Shown here piece by piece: positions 1,410-44,117 of a stretch of 64,000 bases of DNA. A model generated the notes under the pieces. It did not search any database. It had not been told where the DNA came from and saw only the letters and a program-made list of their open reading frames with translations. Position numbers and translations under genes: made by a program. Position 1 is the stretch's first letter, and each line of letters starts with the position of its first letter. Source of the DNA: Clostridium pasteurianum (lineage in GTDB: Bacteria; Bacillota; Clostridia; Clostridiales; Clostridiaceae); contig NZ_MCGV01000001.1 of NCBI RefSeq assembly GCF_001705235.1, positions 186,001-250,000 on the forward strand. The letters are read 5' to 3'.

Positions 1410-3230
1410 TTATCTAGATCTTTTTTTCTTACGTAAATTAGTGTCTAATATGCTCTTTCTCATTCTTATGCTCTTTGGAGTAACTTCAACAAGTTCATCT
1501 GAAGCAATAAATTCAAGACACTTTTCAAGTGACATTTCAGGTATTGGTACTAACTTTAAAGCATCATCCGCACCTGAAGATCGCGTATTTGTAAGATGCT
1601 TTTTCTTACAAACATTGACTTCTATGTCCTCGGCTCTTGAGCACTCTCCAACTATCATTCCTTCATAAACATCTACTCCAGCACCAACAAATAGTCTTCC
1701 TCTTTCTTGAGCACTATATAATCCATAAACAACTGAAACTCCTGGTTCAAATACAACTATTGATCCTCTAGATCTTTCAGGAATATCACCTTTATATGGC
1801 TCATAATCTGTAAGAACTGAGTTCATTATTCCATTTCCCTTTGTGTCTGTCATAAGCTCACTTCTAAAGCCTATAAGACCCCTTGAAGGTATTTTAAATA
1901 TCAATCTTGTATAACCATTTATTGCTGAAGTCATGTTTACAAGTTCAGCCTTTCTAGGTCCAAGCTTTTCCATTACTACACCCATAAATTCTTCAGGTAC
2001 ATCAATTGTAAGTTCTTCAATTGGTTCCATTTTTTTGCCGTCTTCTTCTTTAAATATTACACTTGGCTTTGATACCTGGAATTCATAGCCTTCTCTTCTC
2101 ATTGTTTCAATTAAAATTGATAAATGAAGTTCTCCTCTTCCGCTTACCTTAAATCTATCTGGAGAATCAGTTTCTTCTACTCTTAAACTTACATTTGTCT
2201 CTAATTCTTTTTGGAGTCTATCCTTTAAATGTCTTGATGTTACATAATCTCCTTCTCTTCCTGCAAAAGGAGAATCATTTACCATAAAGTACATACTTAA
2301 TGTAGGCTCATCAATATCAACAAATGGGAGTGCTTCTGGTCTAGATGAATCTGCAATTGTCTCTCCTATGTTTACGTCTGGTATTCCTGAAACAACAGCT
2401 ATATCTCCAAATTCAACTTTATCAGCATCAACTCTTTTAAGACCTTCATAAGTAAATAGGCTTGAGATTTTTACATTTTCTTTAGCTCCATCACGCCTTA
2501 TTAAAACTGCCTGCTGATTCTTCTTTATAGTACCTCTTTCAACTCTTCCTATTGCTATTCTTCCAACATATTCATTGGAATCTATTGTTGAAACAAGCAT
2601 TTGAAATGGCTCATCAATATAACCTACAGGTGGTTTTACATATTTAATAATTGTTTTAAATAATGGTTCCATAGAATCACTTTCATCATCAATATCAAGT
2701 TTTGCAATACCTGCTTTAGCAGAAGCATAAACTATAGGAAAATCAAGCTGATCTTCATCTGCTCCTAATTCTATAAACAAGTCTAAAACTTCATCTACTA
2801 CTTCCATAGGTCTTGCATTAGGCTTATCTATCTTATTTATTACAACTATTGGTTTAAGTTTAAGTTCCAAAGCTTTTTTTAGTACGAATTTAGTTTGAGG
2901 CATAGGTCCCTCAAAAGCATCTACTAAAAGAAGTACGCTGTCTACCATTTTAAGTACACGTTCAACTTCTCCACCAAAATCCGCATGTCCCGGAGTATCT
3001 ACAATATTTATTTTAACTCCTTCATGCATAACAGAAGTATTTTTTGAAAGAATAGTTATTCCTCTTTCTTTCTCTAAATCATTGGAATCCATAACTCTTT
3101 CTTGAACTTTCTCATTTGCTCTAAAAACGTGACTTTGTCTAAGTAAGGCATCTACAAGAGTAGTCTTACCATGATCGACATGGGCTATTATAGCAACGTT
3201 TCTTATGTCATTTCTAGTAATTTTTTCCAT
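1410..3230 (-). CDS. typA: Ribosome-associated GTPase TypA/BipA
   Basis: TypA (BipA) is a translational GTPase that acts on ribosome assembly and stress adaptation. The 606-residue protein starts [17 protein letters not shown], followed by AHVDHGKTT (G1), DTPGHADF (G3), NKID (G4), the EF-G-like domains and the TypA C-terminus. An upstream in-frame ATG would add 25 residues, but GGAGGAAAAGAA sits just before the ATG at 3230 and the family begins there. A hairpin at 3281-3309 lies in its leader. The gene is followed 14 bases later by mltG. Confidence 0.95.
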
Positions 3231-9654: not shown

Positions 9655-9862
9655 CAAAAAAGCTTTCATCCCCTATACACACATAAGGGACGAAAGCTGT
9701 AATTTCCGCGGTACCACCCTAATTACACTACAAAAGTGTCTCTCATCAAAAAGTTCAAAGATAGCTTCAAATCAATACATAAGAAGTTTTCACCAAACAC
9801 TTCTTCTCTAAATATGCAAATTAATTTTACTCATTCTTATCATCACTTTAATATAAACCAAT
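9655..9862 (-). promoter_or_regulatory. T-box leader of alaS with terminator/antiterminator
   Basis: The minus strand carries the T-box sequence GGGTGGTACCGCGG (9706-9719), which pairs with the NCCA end of uncharged tRNA. It is followed by a terminator at 9655-9697: AGCTTTCGTCCCT pairs with AGGGGATGAAAGCT, then a T-run. A likely specifier is GCT (Ala) in TTTGAAGCTATC, upstream in a Stem I-like region. The family model is that uncharged tRNA-Ala stabilises the antiterminator and switches on alaS. The specifier is inferred; the T-box and terminator are directly visible. Confidence 0.92.
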
Positions 9863-13709: not shown

Positions 13710-16700
13710 TTACATATTAACAGCAGCAGCTTTTTTCTTTGATTGTTCAAGTATTAATTTATATGCTGTTGGAATAACCTTTTTAAATTTAGCTTTATAT
13801 TCGTCCCAATTTTCTAGTATTTTCTTTGCTTTAACACTGTCTGTATATTCATAATGTTCCTTTATAAGATCATATAGAACTTTTTCATCAGCATCATCAT
13901 AATCGGTTGTAATTTCCACCATTTCAGTATTGCATTTATCTTCAAAATCATTATTCTCATCAAGTACAAATGCCATACCACCACTCATTCCAGCGCCAAA
14001 GTTTCTTCCAGTCTTTCCAAGTACAACAGCAATTCCACCAGTCATATATTCACAGCAGTGATCTCCTGTACCTTCTGCTACTGCATATGCACCACTGTTT
14101 CTTACTGCAAAACGCTCTCCAACCATTCCATTAACAAACAATTTACCGCTTGTTGCCCCATATAGAATAGTATTTCCAGCAATAACATTTTCATCTTGTT
14201 TAAAGGTTGCCCTTTTAGGTGTTTTAATTGCTATTTTAGCACCTGACAAGCTCTTTCCTACATAATCATTAGCTTCACCTTCAAGAATAAGAGTCATACC
14301 CTTCATTCCAAATGCACCAAAGCTCTGACCAGCCGAACCAATAAAATTAAATCTTATAGTATCATCTGGAAGTCCATTTTCTCCATATGCTTTTGCAACT
14401 TTTCCGCTGAGCATAGCTCCAACTGATCTATCTACATTTTTAATTTCAAAATTTCCAACTACAGGTTTTCCAGAATTTATAGCATCCTTTGCTATTTGAA
14501 TCAGTTTATAATCCATAATTTTATCTAAGCCATGATTTTGAGCTATTGTACAGTATGGTTTTATTCTCTTTGGCATATCAGGCTTATATAATATCTTTGA
14601 AAGATTAATTCCCTTTGCTTTCCAGTGGGTTACAGCATCTTTTGCTTCTATTTTATCAACTCTTCCAACCATTTCATTTATTGTTCTAAAGCCAAGCTGT
14701 GCCATATATTCTCTAACTTCCTGAGCAATAAAAGTAAGGAAGTTTATAACATATTCAGGTTTCCCTTTAAATTTCTTTCTAAGATCTTCATCTTGAGTTG
14801 CTATTCCCATTTCACATGTATTAAGATGACAGTTTCTAAGCATGCAACAGCCTAATGATACAAGTATAGTAGAAGCAAATACGAACTCTTCTGCTCCTAA
14901 AAGTGCAGCTACTACAACATCCTTACCTGTTTTTAACTGTCCATCTGTTTGAAGAACAACTCTGCTTCTTAAATTGTTTAAAAGAAGTACCTGCTGAGTT
15001 TCTGATAATCCAAGCTCCCATGGAATTCCAGCATGCTTTACTGAAGATAATGGTGCCGCACCTGTACCTCCATCGTGACCACTTATTAGTATCGAATCTG
15101 CATGAGCTTTAGCAACACCTGCTGCTACAGTTCCTACTCCAACTTCAGAAACAAGCTTTACGCTTATTCTTGCTGATGGGTTTACACATTTAAGATCAAA
15201 TATAAGCTGTGCTAAATCCTCAATAGAATATATATCATGGTGAGGTGGTGGTGAAATAAGGTCTATTCCTGGTGTTGAATGTCTTACTCTGGCTATGTTT
15301 ACATCAACTTTTCTTCCTGGAAGCTGTCCACCTTCTCCTGGTTTTGCACCCTGTGCCATTTTAATTTGAAGTTCATCAGCATTTACAAGATATTCTGTGG
15401 TTACTCCAAATCTAGCAGAGGCTATCTGCTTTATAGCACTTCTTCTTAAATCGCCATTAGCATCTGTCTTATATCTCTCATTGTCTTCTCCGCCTTCTCC
15501 GCAGTTACTCTTACCGCCAATTCTATTCATTGCTATTGCAATAGTTTCATGAGCTTCTTTACTGATTGAACCAAATGACATAGCTCCTGAACAGAATCTT
15601 TTTAGTATTTCACTTACAGGTTCTACTTCATCTATTGATATTGGATTTAAGTTTTTAAATTTAAACAATCCTCTTATTGTGCAAAGATTTTTATCCTGAT
15701 TATCTATTAATTTAGTATAATCCTTAAACATTTTGTAATTGCCAGTTCTAGCAGCAACTTGAAGTCTATATATTGAATCTGGGTTGAATAAATGGAACTC
15801 TCCATTCTTTCTCCAAGCATATTGACCTCCTACGCTTAATACAGATACTGGCTTTCTTATTTTATTAAACGCATTTTCGTACCTATTTAGAACTTCTCTA
15901 GCAACTACATCTATTCCTATACCTTCTATTCTAGATGGAGTACCTTCAAAATATTTATTTACTAACTCACTGCTAAGACCTATTGCTTCAAATATCTCAG
16001 CACCATGGTAACTTCTAAGAGTAGATATACCCATCTTAGACAATATCTTTAATATACCATGATTTATAGCATTAATATAATTACTTATTGCCTTAGTTGC
16101 GTCCTCTATTACTATATCCTTTTCTCTTACCAATTGTCTTATAGATTCAAATGCAATATAAGGATTTACTGCAGTAGCACCATATCCAAGTAAAAGTGCA
16201 AAATGCATAGTTTCTCTTGCTTCTCCTGTTTCCACAATAATAGATACTTTTGTACGTGTTTTCTCTTTTATCAAATGGTGATGAACAGCAGATAATGCAA
16301 GTAAACTTGGTATTGCAGCTTCATAAGAATCTATATGTTTATCACTTAATACAATTATATTAAATCCTTCTTTTATCCTCTTTGAAGCTCTCTCACAAAT
16401 TTTTTCTAGTGCCTCTTTAAATCCATCAATTCCTGTATCATATTTAAATGTAATAGGAATAGTTGTAGTTTTAAAATCCTTATTTCTAAGATTCTTTATT
16501 TTTTGCATATTGAGATCTGTTAAAATTGGCGAATCTATTTCTATAAAAGGAACATCCTCTGCATCCTTATTTAATATATTTCCCTGAGAACCTATATAAT
16601 TAATAAGTGATGTAACCATTTCTTCTCGTATAGGATCTATAGGAGGATTAGTTACCTGTGCAAATAACTGTTTAAAATATTCAAATAAAAGCTGAGATTT

Positions 16701-36359: not shown

Positions 36360-36727
36360 CGTTTTATCACCTCCATAATTAATAGCATTTTTTTAAATTT
36401 CATTTTTAATATAGTTAAACTTCATATTATACTTACTATATCGGAGGTTTAAAGAAAATTTTTATAGTTTTTTTAAAAAAATTTTTATTTTAATAATAAT
36501 TGTCGTTAAAGTTAAAGCCAATATTTCTATACCTCATTACCCTTTTAAATAAAATTATATTAAATTTATTTAAAAATATTGTAATTCTAGCGAAAACATG
36601 ATATGTTTAAAATACTCGAAACGTGCAGAATAATATGTATTAAGGTAACTTAGCTATTTATATTTAATAAATTTTATAGGTATACTAAAAGCATGCTCCC
36701 TTAAATAGCAATTTACTAATTGAACCT
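36360..36727. other. Intergenic region upstream of the cellulose riboswitch
   Basis: About 370 A+T-rich bases separate the SseB-like gene from the aptamer. TATACT at 36681-36686 is a plausible -10 for the riboswitch transcript, with a weak -35. I see no gene. Confidence 0.45.
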
Positions 36728-36811
36728 ATATAGTATGAAGAAACTATGATGGATTTTCTGAAATTGGGCACTTGGAAAATTCTGAGTTAATAGTGCAACC
36801 GACCAACTATT
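36728..36811 (+). promoter_or_regulatory. c-di-GMP-II riboswitch aptamer upstream of bcsA
   Basis: The stretch GAAGAAACTATGATGG...AAATTGGGCACTTGG...GAGTTAATAGTGCAACCGACC reproduces the conserved core of class II cyclic di-GMP riboswitches: (A)GAAAC-ATGATG, AAATTGGGCACTTG and TAGTGCAACCGACC. GGCACT and AGTGC can form the pseudoknot-region pairing known for the class. P1 is ATAGT (36730-36734) with ACTAT (36806-36810). It is directly followed by an intrinsic terminator and the bcsA gene, so its target is the cellulose operon. Confidence 0.93.
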
Positions 36812-36851
36812 GATATTTTTTAAAATATTTATCTATAGTTGGCCTTTTTTT
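36803..36851 (+). terminator. Riboswitch-controlled terminator before bcsA
   Basis: CCAACTATTGATA (36803-36815) pairs with TATCTATAGTTGG (36830-36842), followed by CCTTTTTTT. Its 5' half uses ACCAACTAT, which includes the 3' strand of aptamer P1. Aptamer and terminator should be mutually exclusive, predicting that c-di-GMP turns transcription ON. That direction is an inference. Confidence 0.85.
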
Positions 36852-36892
36852 ATAATATTAGAAAATAAAACTTACTTAGGTGGCGATATTCA

Positions 36893-39166
36893 ATGAAATT
36901 AAAGAAAATAAGAAATCATTTTTTAATAATTAGTAGTACACTGATGACTATTATTTATTTAATTTGGAGAATATTTTTTACTATTCCCATTGGAGATAAT
37001 ATAGTATCTATTTTTTCTGCGTTAGCATTATTAATTGTAGAAATTTTAGGAATGTTCGAAGCGGCAGTACACTATTACCAAATGTCAGAAATATCGTATC
37101 CATCAAAACCTAAAGTCAACGAAAATCTATTTCCTGATATAGACATTTTTATTGCTACATATAATGAGCCAAAAAAGTTACTTTATAAAACTATAAACGG
37201 CTGTATAAATATGGACTATCCCGATAAAACTAAAGTTCACATTTATTTATGTGACGATGGTAATCGACCCGAATTTAAGAATTTAGCACACTCTATGAAA
37301 ATAAATTACTTAACCCGTAGTGATAGAAAAGGTTCAAAAGCAGGAAATTTAAATAATGCTCTTGCACACTCAACTTCACCTTTAATTGTAACTTTTGATG
37401 CAGATATGATTCCAATGCATGATTTTTTAACTGCTTCTGTACCCTATTTTCTTACATCTGAAAAAGTTGGTTTTGTTCAAACTCCACAAAGCTTTTATAA
37501 TCCTGATTTATTTCAATATTATCTTTATTCAGAGGGAAGAATTCCAAATGAGCAGGATTATTTTTACAGAGACGTTCAAATTTCTAGAAACAAAAGCAAT
37601 TCAGTTATATATGGCGGCACAAATACTGTTATTTCACGTAAAGCTTTAGAGGACGCAGGCGGATTTTACACCAAAGCTATAACTGAAGATTTTGCAACTG
37701 GTTTAATAATACAAAGCAAGGGTTATAAGTGCTATGCCATTAACGAAATCCATGCTTCAGGTCTTGCCCCTGAGGACTTACCAAGTTTAATTAAGCAGCG
37801 TGAGAGATGGTCAAGAGGCTGCATTCAGACTGGTAGAAAATTAAATATATTATTTAGAAAAGGTCTAACTATAGGTCAAAAACTAAGCTATATTTCTGCA
37901 ATTTCTTACTGGTATTCAGGTATAAAAAGATTGATTTATATTATGTCCCCTATTCTTTTCTCAGTTTTTGGAGTAATTGTTGTAAAGTGTACTCTTACTC
38001 AAGTGCTTATTTTTTGGCTCCCAATGTATTTACTAAGCAACGCGGCATTAAAAAAATTATCCAACAATATAAGAACTACAAAATGGACGAATATATATGA
38101 AACTATTTTATTTCCATCACTTATTATTCCTGTTTTACTCGAAACCTTAGGTATATCACAGGTTAAATTTGCTGTAACACGAAAAGATGGAGTTCATGAT
38201 GATAAAAATTATCGATTAAAAAGATCAGTCCCTCATATATTTTTTGCCGTACTTTCCTTAATAGGCATAATAAACTGTACTAAAATGATTTTTGATTCAG
38301 GGTCACCTACATACATAGTTGTTTTATTTTGGCTTGTAGTTAATTTTTATAATTTATTAATGTCTATATTTTTTATGCTTGGAAGAAAATCCTTCCGTAC
38401 ATCCGAAAGATTTTTAGCAAAAGAGAAATGTATAATTTCTTATTATGAAAATCAAATTAGTTCTACAACTATAGATATATCTGAAGGAGGACTAGCTGTT
38501 ATTTTAAATTTTCCTGAATTTATACCTTATGATATTGATGTAAAACTCTCTATACATACTGAAATATACAATTGTGAATTTAAAGCTGTAGTTGTACATG
38601 TTCAAAATACAGGTAGGAGTTGGAAATATGCATTTAAAATAACAACTCTAGACGAAAGAAATCATAAAAAGCTGCTTCAAATTATTTATGATAGGGTACA
38701 CTCCCTACCTAAAAGTTTGGATAAAAGTAATAGCATATTTGATGATATTAGAGTTAATGTACTTGATAGGAATAAAAAGCCGTTTCAATTTAACAGGAAA
38801 CTTCCGCGCATTGAATTAAATACAGAATTATTATCAGATGAATCCGGAGAAGTAACCATGACGTCTTTTAATTATGAATATATTGTTTTAAAAGAAATTT
38901 GTTCCAAAAGGTTAAGTTCAAGATTAACGCTGCATATTAGCTACAATAAACGCATTAACTGTATTTTTGAAAAGAATATTAATTATAAACGAAAAGAAAA
39001 ATTCCATTCTTATCTTTACAGAATTGAAGATTATAAAGCTTTACAGAAAGATGAAGAATTCAGGCAAATATTAAATCAATGGATTATTAATAACAAAGAA
39101 GTTCAATATCAAGCACTTAATAAAAATAGAAATGACGACTATCTTAATGAAATGGATTATTTATGA
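36893..39166 (+). CDS. bcsA: Cellulose synthase catalytic subunit with C-terminal PilZ domain
   Basis: This 757-residue membrane GT2 polymerises UDP-glucose into beta-1,4-glucan and exports it. Membrane helices flank a GT domain with DDG (121-123), DAD (169-171), TED (264-266) and QRERW (302-306). The gating loop FAVTRKDG (426-433) matches the FxVTxK that c-di-GMP unlocks. The PilZ domain from about 498 has RTSERF and DISEGG (528-533), the binding arginines and D-x-S-xx-G. The C-terminal 120 residues are not recognised. The ATG follows TTAGGTGGCGATATTCA, a weaker ribosome site. Confidence 0.94.
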   Translation: MKLKKIRNHFLIISSTLMTIIYLIWRIFFTIPIGDNIVSIFSALALLIVEILGMFEAAVHYYQMSEISYPSKPKVNENLFPDIDIFIATYNEPKKLLYKTINGCINMDYPDKTKVHIYLCDDGNRPEFKNLAHSMKINYLTRSDRKGSKAGNLNNALAHSTSPLIVTFDADMIPMHDFLTASVPYFLTSEKVGFVQTPQSFYNPDLFQYYLYSEGRIPNEQDYFYRDVQISRNKSNSVIYGGTNTVISRKALEDAGGFYTKAITEDFATGLIIQSKGYKCYAINEIHASGLAPEDLPSLIKQRERWSRGCIQTGRKLNILFRKGLTIGQKLSYISAISYWYSGIKRLIYIMSPILFSVFGVIVVKCTLTQVLIFWLPMYLLSNAALKKLSNNIRTTKWTNIYETILFPSLIIPVLLETLGISQVKFAVTRKDGVHDDKNYRLKRSVPHIFFAVLSLIGIINCTKMIFDSGSPTYIVVLFWLVVNFYNLLMSIFFMLGRKSFRTSERFLAKEKCIISYYENQISSTTIDISEGGLAVILNFPEFIPYDIDVKLSIHTEIYNCEFKAVVVHVQNTGRSWKYAFKITTLDERNHKKLLQIIYDRVHSLPKSLDKSNSIFDDIRVNVLDRNKKPFQFNRKLPRIELNTELLSDESGEVTMTSFNYEYIVLKEICSKRLSSRLTLHISYNKRINCIFEKNINYKRKEKFHSYLYRIEDYKALQKDEEFRQILNQWIINNKEVQYQALNKNRNDDYLNEMDYL

Positions 39167-39181
39167 TTTAGGAGGATTAAC

Positions 39182-40363
39182 ATGACATTTATTAAAAAAA
39201 TACTACTGCTTTTTTTTATAATAATCTTAATTTTGCCTTATCATTTTATAGCTAAAGCAGATGCTACCTCAGGTATACTTATATCTGATAATATGCGTCA
39301 AATGTCAAACGGATCAACTGTCCAATATAATACAAATTCAATAAACGGAAATTATAATTTAACTGCTAAAATTACTTCTAAAGGATTAAAAAAAGGATAT
39401 TATTCAACTATCTTTTATAATGCTTTAAACAATAATATGTTTAATTATGGAATAGTCTCTTTTGACATACATAATAACTCTAATAGCCAATTAAATATCA
39501 ATTTTATGATCAATAAGCAAGATGGTACAAGTTTATCTATAGCAAATGACAGTTATGTACTTCTTAAAGAAAGTAGCAGTGCTTTAATAAAAAAATTATC
39601 TCCATCCAATGGAAGTATCGTAATTTCAAAAGGGTTTAATGGAACTGTTCTTATTCCACTAAACGCTTTAAAACAAAATCAAATTCAAAATACTAATCAG
39701 AATACTACATCTATGATTGCAAGCTTACCTTCTTGGTGGGGAATACTTATAACTTCAAAGGAGAATGAAAAAAAAGATTTTACTTTAAGCAATTTTAATC
39801 TAATAAACGCCGACAATAAAATACAGGAAATCGAAAATTTGAATGTAAACTTTAATGGTGACACAAGAGTTCAAATACCAGTTGTAGGTGAATCTATTGC
39901 TAAATATAGTGCCAATATTCATGATTCAAATGGAAATATAGTAAACCAAAAGATAACATATAAAATAGACACACCAAAGAAAGGAATTTCAATTGACAGC
40001 AATGGAATGCTTAAAATCAAACAAAATGTATCACCACAACCAATAAGAATAGATGCAGTGATAGACAATAATTTAGCATTTGAATCCAAAGAAATTCAAC
40101 TATATAAATCATGGACATTAGATGCAAAAGAATTGGACGGTACAAGCAAAAGTATCCCTCAAACCTACGAAGTAAAAAAAATATTAGGCAGTACATATAA
40201 ATTTTTGATGTCCGATTATGTAATGAATATTATAAGAATTTCTGCTGTTATATCATTACTGCTATTTATAAAATTATATTTATATTGGAAAAAAATTAAT
40301 TACAAAGAAAAAAAGTTTAATAGAAAAGAATATATTATTAGACGAAATAGAAAAAAATATTGA
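39182..40363 (+). CDS. Membrane-anchored secreted protein, candidate BcsB/CcsB-like partner
   Basis: This 393-residue protein has a signal peptide (hydrophobic residues about 5-25), a long extracytoplasmic Ser/Asn-rich beta-type region and one C-terminal membrane segment near residues 345-362. A very basic tail follows (KKINYKEKKFNRKEYIIRR). This topology matches what BcsB supplies to BcsA in Gram-negatives, but I see no BcsB sequence signature. Clostridial cellulose operons described in C. difficile (ccs genes) include a CcsB of this kind. It lies 15 bases after bcsA. The partner role is inferred. Confidence 0.65.
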   Translation: MTFIKKILLLFFIIILILPYHFIAKADATSGILISDNMRQMSNGSTVQYNTNSINGNYNLTAKITSKGLKKGYYSTIFYNALNNNMFNYGIVSFDIHNNSNSQLNINFMINKQDGTSLSIANDSYVLLKESSSALIKKLSPSNGSIVISKGFNGTVLIPLNALKQNQIQNTNQNTTSMIASLPSWWGILITSKENEKKDFTLSNFNLINADNKIQEIENLNVNFNGDTRVQIPVVGESIAKYSANIHDSNGNIVNQKITYKIDTPKKGISIDSNGMLKIKQNVSPQPIRIDAVIDNNLAFESKEIQLYKSWTLDAKELDGTSKSIPQTYEVKKILGSTYKFLMSDYVMNIIRISAVISLLLFIKLYLYWKKINYKEKKFNRKEYIIRRNRKKY

Positions 40364-40396
40364 TAAATTATTTAATATATAAAGGGTGAATTAATA

Positions 40397-41803
40397 ATGC
40401 TATTTTCAAGTATAGTTTTCATACTGTATTTCTTGCCAATAACCTTGGTATTATACTATTTAACATCATTTTCTAAAAAGCTTCAAAATATTATACTTTT
40501 AGTACTCAGTTTAATTTTTTATGCCTGGGGACAATCTTCATATGTACTAATTATGGTATTTTCTATTTTATTTAATTACATATTAGGCTTATTAATTGAA
40601 AAATACAAAGCAAAATTCTTTTTAATATTTGGATGCTTGTGTAACCTTGGAATACTCTTTGTATTTAAATATTTAGGATTTTTCATAAGAAATATAAACA
40701 GTTTACAATCCTTTAAAATACCAGTCCCTACCCTATCTCTGCCTGTTGGTATTTCTTTTTTTACATTTAAAGCTGTATCGTACCTTGTAGATGTTTATAA
40801 AGAAAAATCAAAAGCAGCTAAGAATCCTATTTATGTTGGGCTCTACATATCATTTTTCCCTGAGCTCTTAGCTGGACCTATTTCTAAATACAACAATATA
40901 GTAGATCAAATAAAAAGTAGAAAAATCACATGGCAAAAATTTTCCGTAGGTTCATGTAGATTTATTACAGGTCTTAGTAAAAAAGTTCTTATATCAAATA
41001 GTATGGCTGTTATAGTCGATAGAATTATTTCTCTCAATGGTAATTTAAACATACCGGCAACACTTGCATGGCTTGGATCCATTGCGTATACTCTTCAAAT
41101 ATATTTTGATTTTTCTGGATACTCTGATATGGCAATAGGACTAGGATTAATGCTAGGATTCAAATTTGAGGAAAACTTTAATTATCCATATATATCAAAA
41201 TCCATATCAGAATTCTGGCGCAGATGGCACATTACTTTAAGTACATGGTTTAAAGACTATGTTTATTTCCCCCTTGGAGGTTCTAGAGTTAAAAATAAAG
41301 ATAAATTAATACGTAACCTGCTTATTGTATGGGTACTCACTGGAGTGTGGCACGGTGCAGAATGGACATTTGTAATCTGGGGATTTTTGAATTTTGTCTT
41401 CATTGCTTTAGAAAAGTTATTATCTTTTGACAAATTGGATATAAAACCTATATATAAACATCTTTATGCACTTTTCATTATAAATTTAGGTTGGGTTATT
41501 TTTAGAGCAAAGGATTTAGAAGCAGCTGGTAAATATATTGCATGCATGTTTGGCCTTAAAAACAATGGTTTCTGGAGCCCATACACATTTATGTTTATAA
41601 AAGAAAATATTGTTTTCTTTATAGCTGGAATCATATTATCAACTCCAATAGCAAGAAAAACTAACACATATATAGTATATAAAGCAAAGCATGCTGCTCT
41701 TTTAGAAGTTTTGTATCCAATTTCTATATTAGGACTTTTTTTAATATCCTTATCCTATATAGTAAAAGGTTCTTATAATCCATTTATTTATTTTAAATTT
41801 TAA
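40397..41803 (+). CDS. MBOAT O-acyltransferase, AlgI-like
   Basis: This 468-residue polytopic membrane protein is of the MBOAT family, which moves acyl groups across the membrane to extracellular polysaccharides (AlgI on alginate, WssH on cellulose, DltB on teichoic acid). It has SISEFWRRWHITLSTWFKDY (His278), FPLGGSRV and the catalytic VLTGVWHGAEW (His319). The ribosome site AAAGGGTG precedes the ATG. It is followed 18 bases later by a DHHW protein, the usual transfer partner. Acetylation of the product is inferred. Confidence 0.9.
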   Translation: MLFSSIVFILYFLPITLVLYYLTSFSKKLQNIILLVLSLIFYAWGQSSYVLIMVFSILFNYILGLLIEKYKAKFFLIFGCLCNLGILFVFKYLGFFIRNINSLQSFKIPVPTLSLPVGISFFTFKAVSYLVDVYKEKSKAAKNPIYVGLYISFFPELLAGPISKYNNIVDQIKSRKITWQKFSVGSCRFITGLSKKVLISNSMAVIVDRIISLNGNLNIPATLAWLGSIAYTLQIYFDFSGYSDMAIGLGLMLGFKFEENFNYPYISKSISEFWRRWHITLSTWFKDYVYFPLGGSRVKNKDKLIRNLLIVWVLTGVWHGAEWTFVIWGFLNFVFIALEKLLSFDKLDIKPIYKHLYALFIINLGWVIFRAKDLEAAGKYIACMFGLKNNGFWSPYTFMFIKENIVFFIAGIILSTPIARKTNTYIVYKAKHAALLEVLYPISILGLFLISLSYIVKGSYNPFIYFKF

Positions 41804-41821
41804 GGAAAAGAGGAAATATGA

Positions 41822-43024
41822 ATGGACAGACTATTTTTCAAAAAATTTATAACATCCATACTATTTGTCATTTTACTTTTTGTACTTTCCTTTAATAATT
41901 TTGCGAAAAATTATACATCTTTATTAAATGCATTTAAAAATACAAAATTTAACAGTATATCTATAAATAGCGCTACAAGCTCCTTAGAAAATACATTAAA
42001 TGATAGCACCTATGGTAAATATACCTTTATAGAATTATATGGATATATTCAAAAATTAATGTGCAAAAATGAAGAATCAAATTTCGAAGTTGTAAAGGAT
42101 GAAAACGGATTTTTGCATTACACCTATTTTGCAAGTCAGCCTAATGCTGTTTATCCACTTGTAAAAAGAATGCAAGCTTTGAAAAGCAACCTAAAAGACA
42201 AAAACACTAAACTAATTTACATGATGCCGCCAGATAAATACATAAGAGGTTATTCAAAATTCCCATATGGAATTCCATACAGTTATTCAAATGAAACGGC
42301 AGATGCATTTCTAAATTTACTGAAAAAGAATAATATTAATACAATAGATCTGCGTAAAAATTTGAGCAAAAGCGATATTCCAAACGATCAGCTATTTTTT
42401 AAGACCGATCATCACTGGACAATTCAAACAGCTTTTTATGAATTTGGAGAGCTTGTGAAAACTTTAAATGAAAGATACGATTTGAATATCGATAAAGATG
42501 GCTTTTATACGAATAAAAATAATTATAATTTTATAACTTACAAAAATTCCTATGTTGGATCAATGGGACGAAAAACTGGAATTACATATTCTGGGGTAGA
42601 TGATTTTACTTTAATTTACCCTAAGTTTGATACAAATTATAACTTCTACTGTAAAACAGGAAGTCAGATATTTAATTTTAATGGTAGATTTGAAGATACT
42701 CTACTTACAATATCACCTTTTAGAACTAACAAAGGTACTTATGATTTAGAAGCTGATAAATATTCTTCATACCTTTTTGGCAATAGAGGAATTGTCCATG
42801 TGACAAACAAAAATAATCCCAATGGTCCAAAGGTTTTATTTGTAAAAGACTCAGTTACTGTACCACTTGCAGCATTTTTATCTACTGTTTGCTCTGATGT
42901 TTACCTTGTTGATCCTAGATATTATACTGGCAGCATTCCAGCTTATATAAATAGTGTAAAGACTGACTTTGTGTTTGTATCATTTTACCCTCAAGATTTA
43001 ACAATGGATTTCTTTAAATTTTAA
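41822..43024 (+). CDS. DHHW family protein (AlgJ/AlgX-like SGNH acetyltransferase candidate)
   Basis: This 400-residue protein has a single N-terminal membrane anchor (about 8-27) and an extracytoplasmic SGNH-like domain. The name motif is exact: KTDHHWT (194-200), and a nucleophile candidate is S344 in VKDSVTVP, with YPKFD and PDKY supporting the fold. In alginate and cellulose acetylation the DHHW/SGNH protein receives the acetyl group from the MBOAT protein. Its pairing with the preceding gene supports this; the substrate is inferred as cellulose. Confidence 0.82.
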   Translation: MDRLFFKKFITSILFVILLFVLSFNNFAKNYTSLLNAFKNTKFNSISINSATSSLENTLNDSTYGKYTFIELYGYIQKLMCKNEESNFEVVKDENGFLHYTYFASQPNAVYPLVKRMQALKSNLKDKNTKLIYMMPPDKYIRGYSKFPYGIPYSYSNETADAFLNLLKKNNINTIDLRKNLSKSDIPNDQLFFKTDHHWTIQTAFYEFGELVKTLNERYDLNIDKDGFYTNKNNYNFITYKNSYVGSMGRKTGITYSGVDDFTLIYPKFDTNYNFYCKTGSQIFNFNGRFEDTLLTISPFRTNKGTYDLEADKYSSYLFGNRGIVHVTNKNNPNGPKVLFVKDSVTVPLAAFLSTVCSDVYLVDPRYYTGSIPAYINSVKTDFVFVSFYPQDLTMDFFKF

Positions 43025-43058
43025 GAAATAATGAATTACATTTATGGAGGTTTTAATA

Positions 43059-44117
43059 ATGAAACTTGGTAGGTTCAAAATTTTCCCTTTAGTTATATTA
43101 ACTATTATTTCTCTAACGAGCTGCGTGAATACACATAAAAAAATCCAGAACAAAAGAACCTACGGAAGTGATTATTATAATTACTGGAAAAAGAAATATG
43201 TTGTAAGCGTAAATTCCAGCATGAGTAAAGTAGTTAATCCTGAAAATAATAAAATTACTGTCAGTGAAGGAATGGGCTATGGTCTCCTATTTAGTGCTGC
43301 TTATGATGATAAAAACCAATTTGATAAGCTTTGGAATTATACTAAGCACTACCTCGATAATAATGGTTTAATGAACTGGAAAATAAACTCTAATGGAAAT
43401 ATTTCAGGTTATGGATCAGCTTCAGATGCAGATGAAGATATAGCATATGCTCTTTTACTTGCAGCAGAAAAATGGCCTAATGCTAGCTACAATAAGGAAG
43501 CGGTAAAAATGATTAACGCAATAAAAAGCACAGAAATTTCAAAAGATTATATACTTTTACCTGGTGACAGTTGGGGAAACAATCCCCCTTTTAATCCCTC
43601 CTACGTTTCTCCATACTACTATTATAAATTTGCCGCACTTTCAAGCTCTGAAAAAAATTATTGGGAAAAAGTGCTGAATGTAAATGTTAACCTTCTAAAT
43701 CAAAATATAGACAAAGAAACAGGACTTTTACCTGATTGGATTAATAAAGATGGCACTATAAAAGCTGAAAATAATAAATTTGGATATGATGCAGTAAGAG
43801 TTCCTTTAAGGCTTATTGAATTTTATAATGAAACGCATAATTCTACAGCAAAGGATATATTAGAGAGAGAAAATGACTTTCTTTCAAAAATTGGTTCTAA
43901 TAAGCTAGTCTCCGGATACAGCACAGATGGTAAACCATTAGCAAACTACATAAACTCCGTATATTTATCTTCTTTTTCAGCAGCAAGCCTTATTAATAAA
44001 GATTCTAACTTCAGCAAAGAAATGATAACTAAACTCAAGAATTCTAAAGATGAAAGCTATTACGGATGCTCTTTAAAGATGTGGGTGTTTCTTATTTTAG
44101 ATAATAAACTAAATTAA
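43059..44117 (+). CDS. Glycoside hydrolase family 8 lipoprotein (BcsZ-like endoglucanase)
   Basis: This 352-residue GH8 enzyme cleaves beta-1,4-glucan. From the ATG at 43059 (behind GGAGG, 8 bases) it has a lipoprotein signal with LTSC (Cys22). The GH8 core has the catalytic acid E70 in TVSEGMGYGLLF and aspartates in YGSASDADEDIAYAL (D123, D125), then PGDSWG. In Gram-negative operons BcsZ trims nascent cellulose and helps export; here it would sit on the outer face of the membrane. It is the last gene of the operon, followed by repeat D. Confidence 0.9.
   Translation: MKLGRFKIFPLVILTIISLTSCVNTHKKIQNKRTYGSDYYNYWKKKYVVSVNSSMSKVVNPENNKITVSEGMGYGLLFSAAYDDKNQFDKLWNYTKHYLDNNGLMNWKINSNGNISGYGSASDADEDIAYALLLAAEKWPNASYNKEAVKMINAIKSTEISKDYILLPGDSWGNNPPFNPSYVSPYYYYKFAALSSSEKNYWEKVLNVNVNLLNQNIDKETGLLPDWINKDGTIKAENNKFGYDAVRVPLRLIEFYNETHNSTAKDILERENDFLSKIGSNKLVSGYSTDGKPLANYINSVYLSSFSAASLINKDSNFSKEMITKLKNSKDESYYGCSLKMWVFLILDNKLN

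Follow-up and report, generated by a model that had tools for sequence, protein, structure and literature searches.

The five-gene ccs operon found in the window, that is, the whole stretch of 64,000 nucleotides of Clostridium pasteurianum DNA analyzed here, is very probably preceded by a genuine class II c-di-GMP riboswitch that acts as a transcriptional ON switch. Both the riboswitch class and the ON logic are known; it is the target that is new, not the mechanism. In the open-licence literature, we found no description of cellulose or cellulosome genes under the control of a class II switch. The arrangement links a clostridial exopolysaccharide synthase, itself equipped with a domain of the c-di-GMP-binding type, directly to a c-di-GMP riboswitch, and thereby predicts a biofilm-matrix switch in Clostridium.

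The aptamer and its terminator

The original prediction had placed a c-di-GMP-II riboswitch at this locus and proposed a covariance-model search as a check. Such a search with cmscan aligned the family RF01786 over its full length to positions 36730–36810 of the forward strand, with a score of 66.5 bits (E 1.1e-12) that exceeds the gathering score of 53.5 bits, which confirms the class assignment; the same aptamer was recovered by a c-di-GMP-II search of the whole genome. The only gathering-level Rfam matches in the window are this element and one T-box. The features of the leader region are as follows.

36657–36686, forward strand: candidate promoter TTTATA-18-TATACT (consensus scan only, 9/12 matches)
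36730–36810, forward strand: c-di-GMP-II riboswitch aptamer (RF01786, model positions 1–84 of 84)
36730–36734, forward strand: P1 5' strand AUAGU, paired with 36806–36810 (cmscan alignment)
36768–36771, forward strand: pseudoknot strand GCAC, complementary to GTGC at 36793–36796 (sequence and known class II architecture)
36806–36810, forward strand: P1 3' strand ACUAU, common to the terminator 5' arm (cmscan alignment and folding)
36803–36851, forward strand: intrinsic terminator, with the stem 36803–36810/36835–36842 and 36812–36815/36830–36833 and the T tract 36845–36851

The candidate promoter lies in an AT-rich region in which promoter-like matches exceed the shuffled mean only slightly. 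Within the aptamer, GAAAC occupies 36740–36744, ATTGGGCACTTG is located around 36763–36774 and TAGTGCAACCGACC at 36791–36804; the RF01786 core, namely the pseudoknot GCAC/GUGC together with CAACCGNC, is present, the latter in the form of CAACCGACC at 36796–36804. One detail of the core as originally described needs a small correction: GAAAC is in place, and the bases 3' of it are TATGATGG.

The P1 helix is weak. It comprises five outer, mostly A-U pairs (AUAGU/ACUAU), and an asymmetric internal loop lies between these and the core; five inner positions are unpaired or non-standard, such that the inner part is reduced to the closing G-C pair 36740–36803; in folding, the P1 pairs contribute only about 1 kcal/mol over the core.

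A pattern scan reported no terminator at this locus because loops longer than 8 nt are beyond its limit; direct folding found the one that had been predicted right behind the aptamer. The hairpin combines an 8-bp stem, CCAACTAT/ATAGTTGG, and a 4-bp stem, GATA/TATC, with a 1x1 T-T mismatch between them; it encloses a long loop and is followed by CC and then seven T (folding energy −12.0 to −12.5 kcal/mol). The P1 3' strand (ACTAT, 36806–36810) was found entirely within the terminator 5' arm (36803–36810), as had been claimed, and the same arm takes up the closing C36803. Because 36806–36810 and C36803 are used by both structures, P1 and the terminator are mutually exclusive. When the pseudoknot and the ligand are ignored, the computed free energy is +2.0 kcal/mol for the P1-closed form versus −15.0 kcal/mol for the terminator with P2/P3, so that the ligand-free RNA should terminate.

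The overlap between P1 and the terminator makes ON logic the most straightforward interpretation of this element. In the absence of the ligand, the terminator 5' arm would capture the nascent P1 3' strand and transcription would halt near 36851. Upon binding of c-di-GMP, which is predicted from the sequence of the aptamer, P1 would be kept closed and the terminator 5' arm blocked, allowing RNA polymerase to read through into ccsA-ccsB-ccsH-ccsI-GH8; the ligand would have to hold P1 closed in the brief interval that precedes the synthesis of the terminator 3' arm. Two features count against this model, namely the two C between the terminator stem and the T tract, and a ligand-free hairpin, 36786–36794/36806–36814, which in folds of truncated transcripts transiently competes for the terminator arm. 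Furthermore, ligand control might be weak because P1 is short, AT-rich and interrupted by an internal loop, and the terminator begins just outside the conserved core.

The operon behind the probable switch

The operon begins 42 nt past the terminator and consists of five genes on one strand (36893–44117), with spacings of 15 to 33 nt; co-transcription from ccsA through the GH8 gene appears likely.

36878–36883, forward strand: ccsA ribosome binding site AGGTGG, 9 nt before the ATG (sequence)
36893–39166, forward strand: ccsA, a bcsA-like processive GT2 with a C-terminal PilZ domain (Pfam GT2 and PilZ)
39182–40363, forward strand: ccsB-like protein (tblastn match adjoining ccsA in most ccs loci, 23–50% identity)
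40397–41803, forward strand: MBOAT O-acyltransferase, ccsH-like (PF03062, E 2.7e-33)
41822–43024, forward strand: SGNH/DHHW O-acetyltransferase-like protein, ccsI-like (PF16822 and PF14286)
43044–44117, forward strand: glycoside hydrolase family 8, BcsZ-like (PF01270, E 1.6e-48)

The window CcsA is 51% identical to that of C. difficile and matches the NCBIfam CelA model with an E-value of 1e-126, yet falls under the cut-off of that model. Its RxxxR, DxSxxG and QxxRW motifs read RTSER, DISEGG and QRERW, respectively, and the PilZ signature motifs are intact both in this protein and in the eight relatives checked. Pfam and NCBIfam searches with the ccsB-like protein (39182–40363) returned no match. 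The GT2 with PilZ and, downstream of it, the ccsB-like, MBOAT (ccsH) and DHHW/SGNH (ccsI) genes follow the same order as in the ccsZABHI operon (Scott et al. 2020, PMC7710045). However, the published C. difficile operon includes the GH5 enzyme CcsZ, whereas the window operon has a 3' GH8 in its place and a riboswitch in front; the ccsABHI set is there, but the hydrolase differs, so that the operon falls short of the full ccsZABHI. The word "riboswitch" does not occur in the text of PMC7710045. A GH8 (BcsZ-like) gene is also present in the ccs operons of C. hydrogenum (L004, 19019–20083) and C. intestinale (L005, approximately 15062–16090), and in C. hydrogenum the ccsB-ccsH-ccsI block is duplicated (L004, 11289–18995).

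The original prediction of a cellulose synthase operon stands insofar as a five-gene ccs operon follows the riboswitch, the term "cellulose" being presumptive because the homologous synthase RiGT2 of Romboutsia ilealis makes (1,3;1,4)-beta-D-glucan (PMC10374906). RiGT2 likewise is a clostridial GT2 with a C-terminal PilZ domain, and in the tree of PMC10374906 C. difficile CcsA falls into a related clade. The product of the window operon may be either cellulose or a mixed-linkage beta-glucan. The PilZ domain of CcsA is predicted to respond to the same c-di-GMP, so that a single second messenger would exert double control over one enzyme, setting its amount through the riboswitch and its activity through PilZ.

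Class II elements in relatives and the direction of switching

Close relatives of ccsA were identified in 28 genomes of the family, and 28 upstream regions from 27 genomes, the window's included, were examined; for the loci near contig ends (L012 and L030), the upstream region was only partly assessable. Among these 28 regions, class II elements are limited to the window, C. hydrogenum (77.5 bits), C. puniceum (78.2 bits) and a sub-threshold copy in C. acidisoli, which was the only one to emerge when the regions upstream of ccsA in the other family members were screened for weak class II copies. Class II elements are also located upstream of ccsA in Tepidibacter mesophilus (55.3 bits) and in Sporolactobacillus laevolacticus (56.8 bits, about 0.4 kb upstream of the ccsA match). 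At the ccsA genes of C. hydrogenum, C. puniceum, T. mesophilus and S. laevolacticus, each element has its own terminator that overlaps the P1 3' strand. Most ccsA homologues have no class II switch.

In the C. acidisoli remnant (33.3 bits; L066, 224–307, reverse strand), the conserved GGGCAC has become AGACAT and the T tract is interrupted, the core and the clean T tract having been lost together; the simplest reading is that this copy is a decaying switch. On the CcsA tree, the presence of the switch requires at least four changes, which are forced by well-supported branches and may be gains or losses, the tree alone being unable to separate the two. We tentatively propose, at slightly below an even chance, that ccs operons in distant Bacillota have acquired c-di-GMP-II ON switches on several independent occasions, which would create a two-layer gate through which one signal governs transcription as well as PilZ-dependent activity of the same synthase, and that decay is caught in progress in C. 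acidisoli. This patchy, recurrent pairing of class II switches with ccs operons adds to the interest of the system.

The overlap between P1 and the terminator is a general design. The terminator 5' arm starts at the P1 3' strand (from −9 to +3 nt) in 24 of 28 class II elements sampled from the window genome and ccsA-carrying genomes, a sample that includes the ccs-linked cases, compared with 7 of 280 shuffles of the downstream sequence. Among the four exceptions, L001 and L055 look like versions that sequester the Shine-Dalgarno sequence, in L050 a terminator seems to have been overlooked by the filter, and L046 is the decayed C. acidisoli copy. The C. ganghwense element (L055, approximately 1570–1640, reverse strand) appears to sequester its Shine-Dalgarno sequence through CCTTTCTTTAA/TTAAAGAAAGGAG, with no use of a terminator.

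The C. difficile class II switches have been described as transcriptional ON switches (PMC11477304), and qRT-PCR showed that c-di-GMP controls all four of them positively, with an explanation through splicing or translation being favoured in that work (PMC3649979). Taken together with the 24 of 28 elements that share the architecture, these reports make ON logic the expectation for the class and lend support to the direction that had been predicted for the window element. The ON-type RF01786 elements described in C. difficile, for example Cdi2_4 in front of the type IV pilus operon (CD3513), have the same core and pseudoknot, the same expected ON direction and a surface or biofilm target. Their targets are pili, adhesin-like proteins and CmrRST rather than ccs (PMC11477304), whereas the window element precedes a ccs glucan synthase operon.

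The alternative that survives best, although we consider it unlikely, is that the aptamer is a true c-di-GMP-II representative in which switching has become weak or has been lost, P1 being decayed and the terminator ligand-independent, which would leave the operon mostly at a low constitutive level. Five isolated AU-rich pairs that gain about 1 kcal/mol over the core are compatible with such a loss, and the C. acidisoli copy demonstrates that elements of this kind do decay at the ccsA locus. However, the window element retains an intact core and pseudoknot (66.5 bits), its P1 3' strand has remained complementary to both the P1 5' strand and the terminator 3' arm, and the close relative C. hydrogenum maintains a strong aptamer-terminator pair (77.5 bits). 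Less probable still is an OFF switch, in which c-di-GMP would raise termination and repress the operon. The class I c-di-GMP riboswitches of C. difficile are OFF switches (PMC11477304), and the ligand-free hairpin 36786–36794/36806–36814 could serve as an antiterminator; this hairpin cannot yield an OFF switch, however, because ligand-bound P1 sits on the same terminator arm (36806–36810), which makes the full terminator impossible in the bound form, and the competing design expected of ON switches is widespread in the class. The OFF model was rejected on the ground that P1 and the terminator share nucleotides. Chance resemblance, with no riboswitch at all, has a negligible probability: AT-rich sequence yields many spurious stems, but the full-model E-value is 1.1e-12 and copies occur in the same position before ccsA in other species.

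Other RNA elements and c-di-GMP in the genome

The genome that contains this ON switch candidate encodes 11 GGDEF domains and carries three class II c-di-GMP riboswitches over threshold. No class I c-di-GMP riboswitch over threshold was detected in it, and, judging by coordinates, none adjoins ccsA in the other genomes among the matches listed. The second class II element (L002, 1501–1583, reverse strand) has an ON-type terminator with the same overlap with P1 and is located about 0.7 kb before a gene for a GH9-type cellulase (L096, 1440–4124, reverse strand) with CBM4_9 and CelD_N domains and C-terminal repeats that, by sequence, appear dockerin-like; the leader between the two contains no long open frame. 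The third element (L001, 1501–1913) has no terminator and shows CCAATAA/TTATTGG adjoining GGAGGAG, which is likely a Shine-Dalgarno-sequestering stem and resembles a translational ON design. It is followed by a frame of 99 aa that ends just past a run of seven C, where a frameshift or a phase-variable tract is possible. The T-box leader in the window (RF00230, 108.9 bits; 9683–9852, reverse strand) is located directly upstream of a 903-aa gene that, from its position and size, presumably encodes an aminoacyl-tRNA synthetase.
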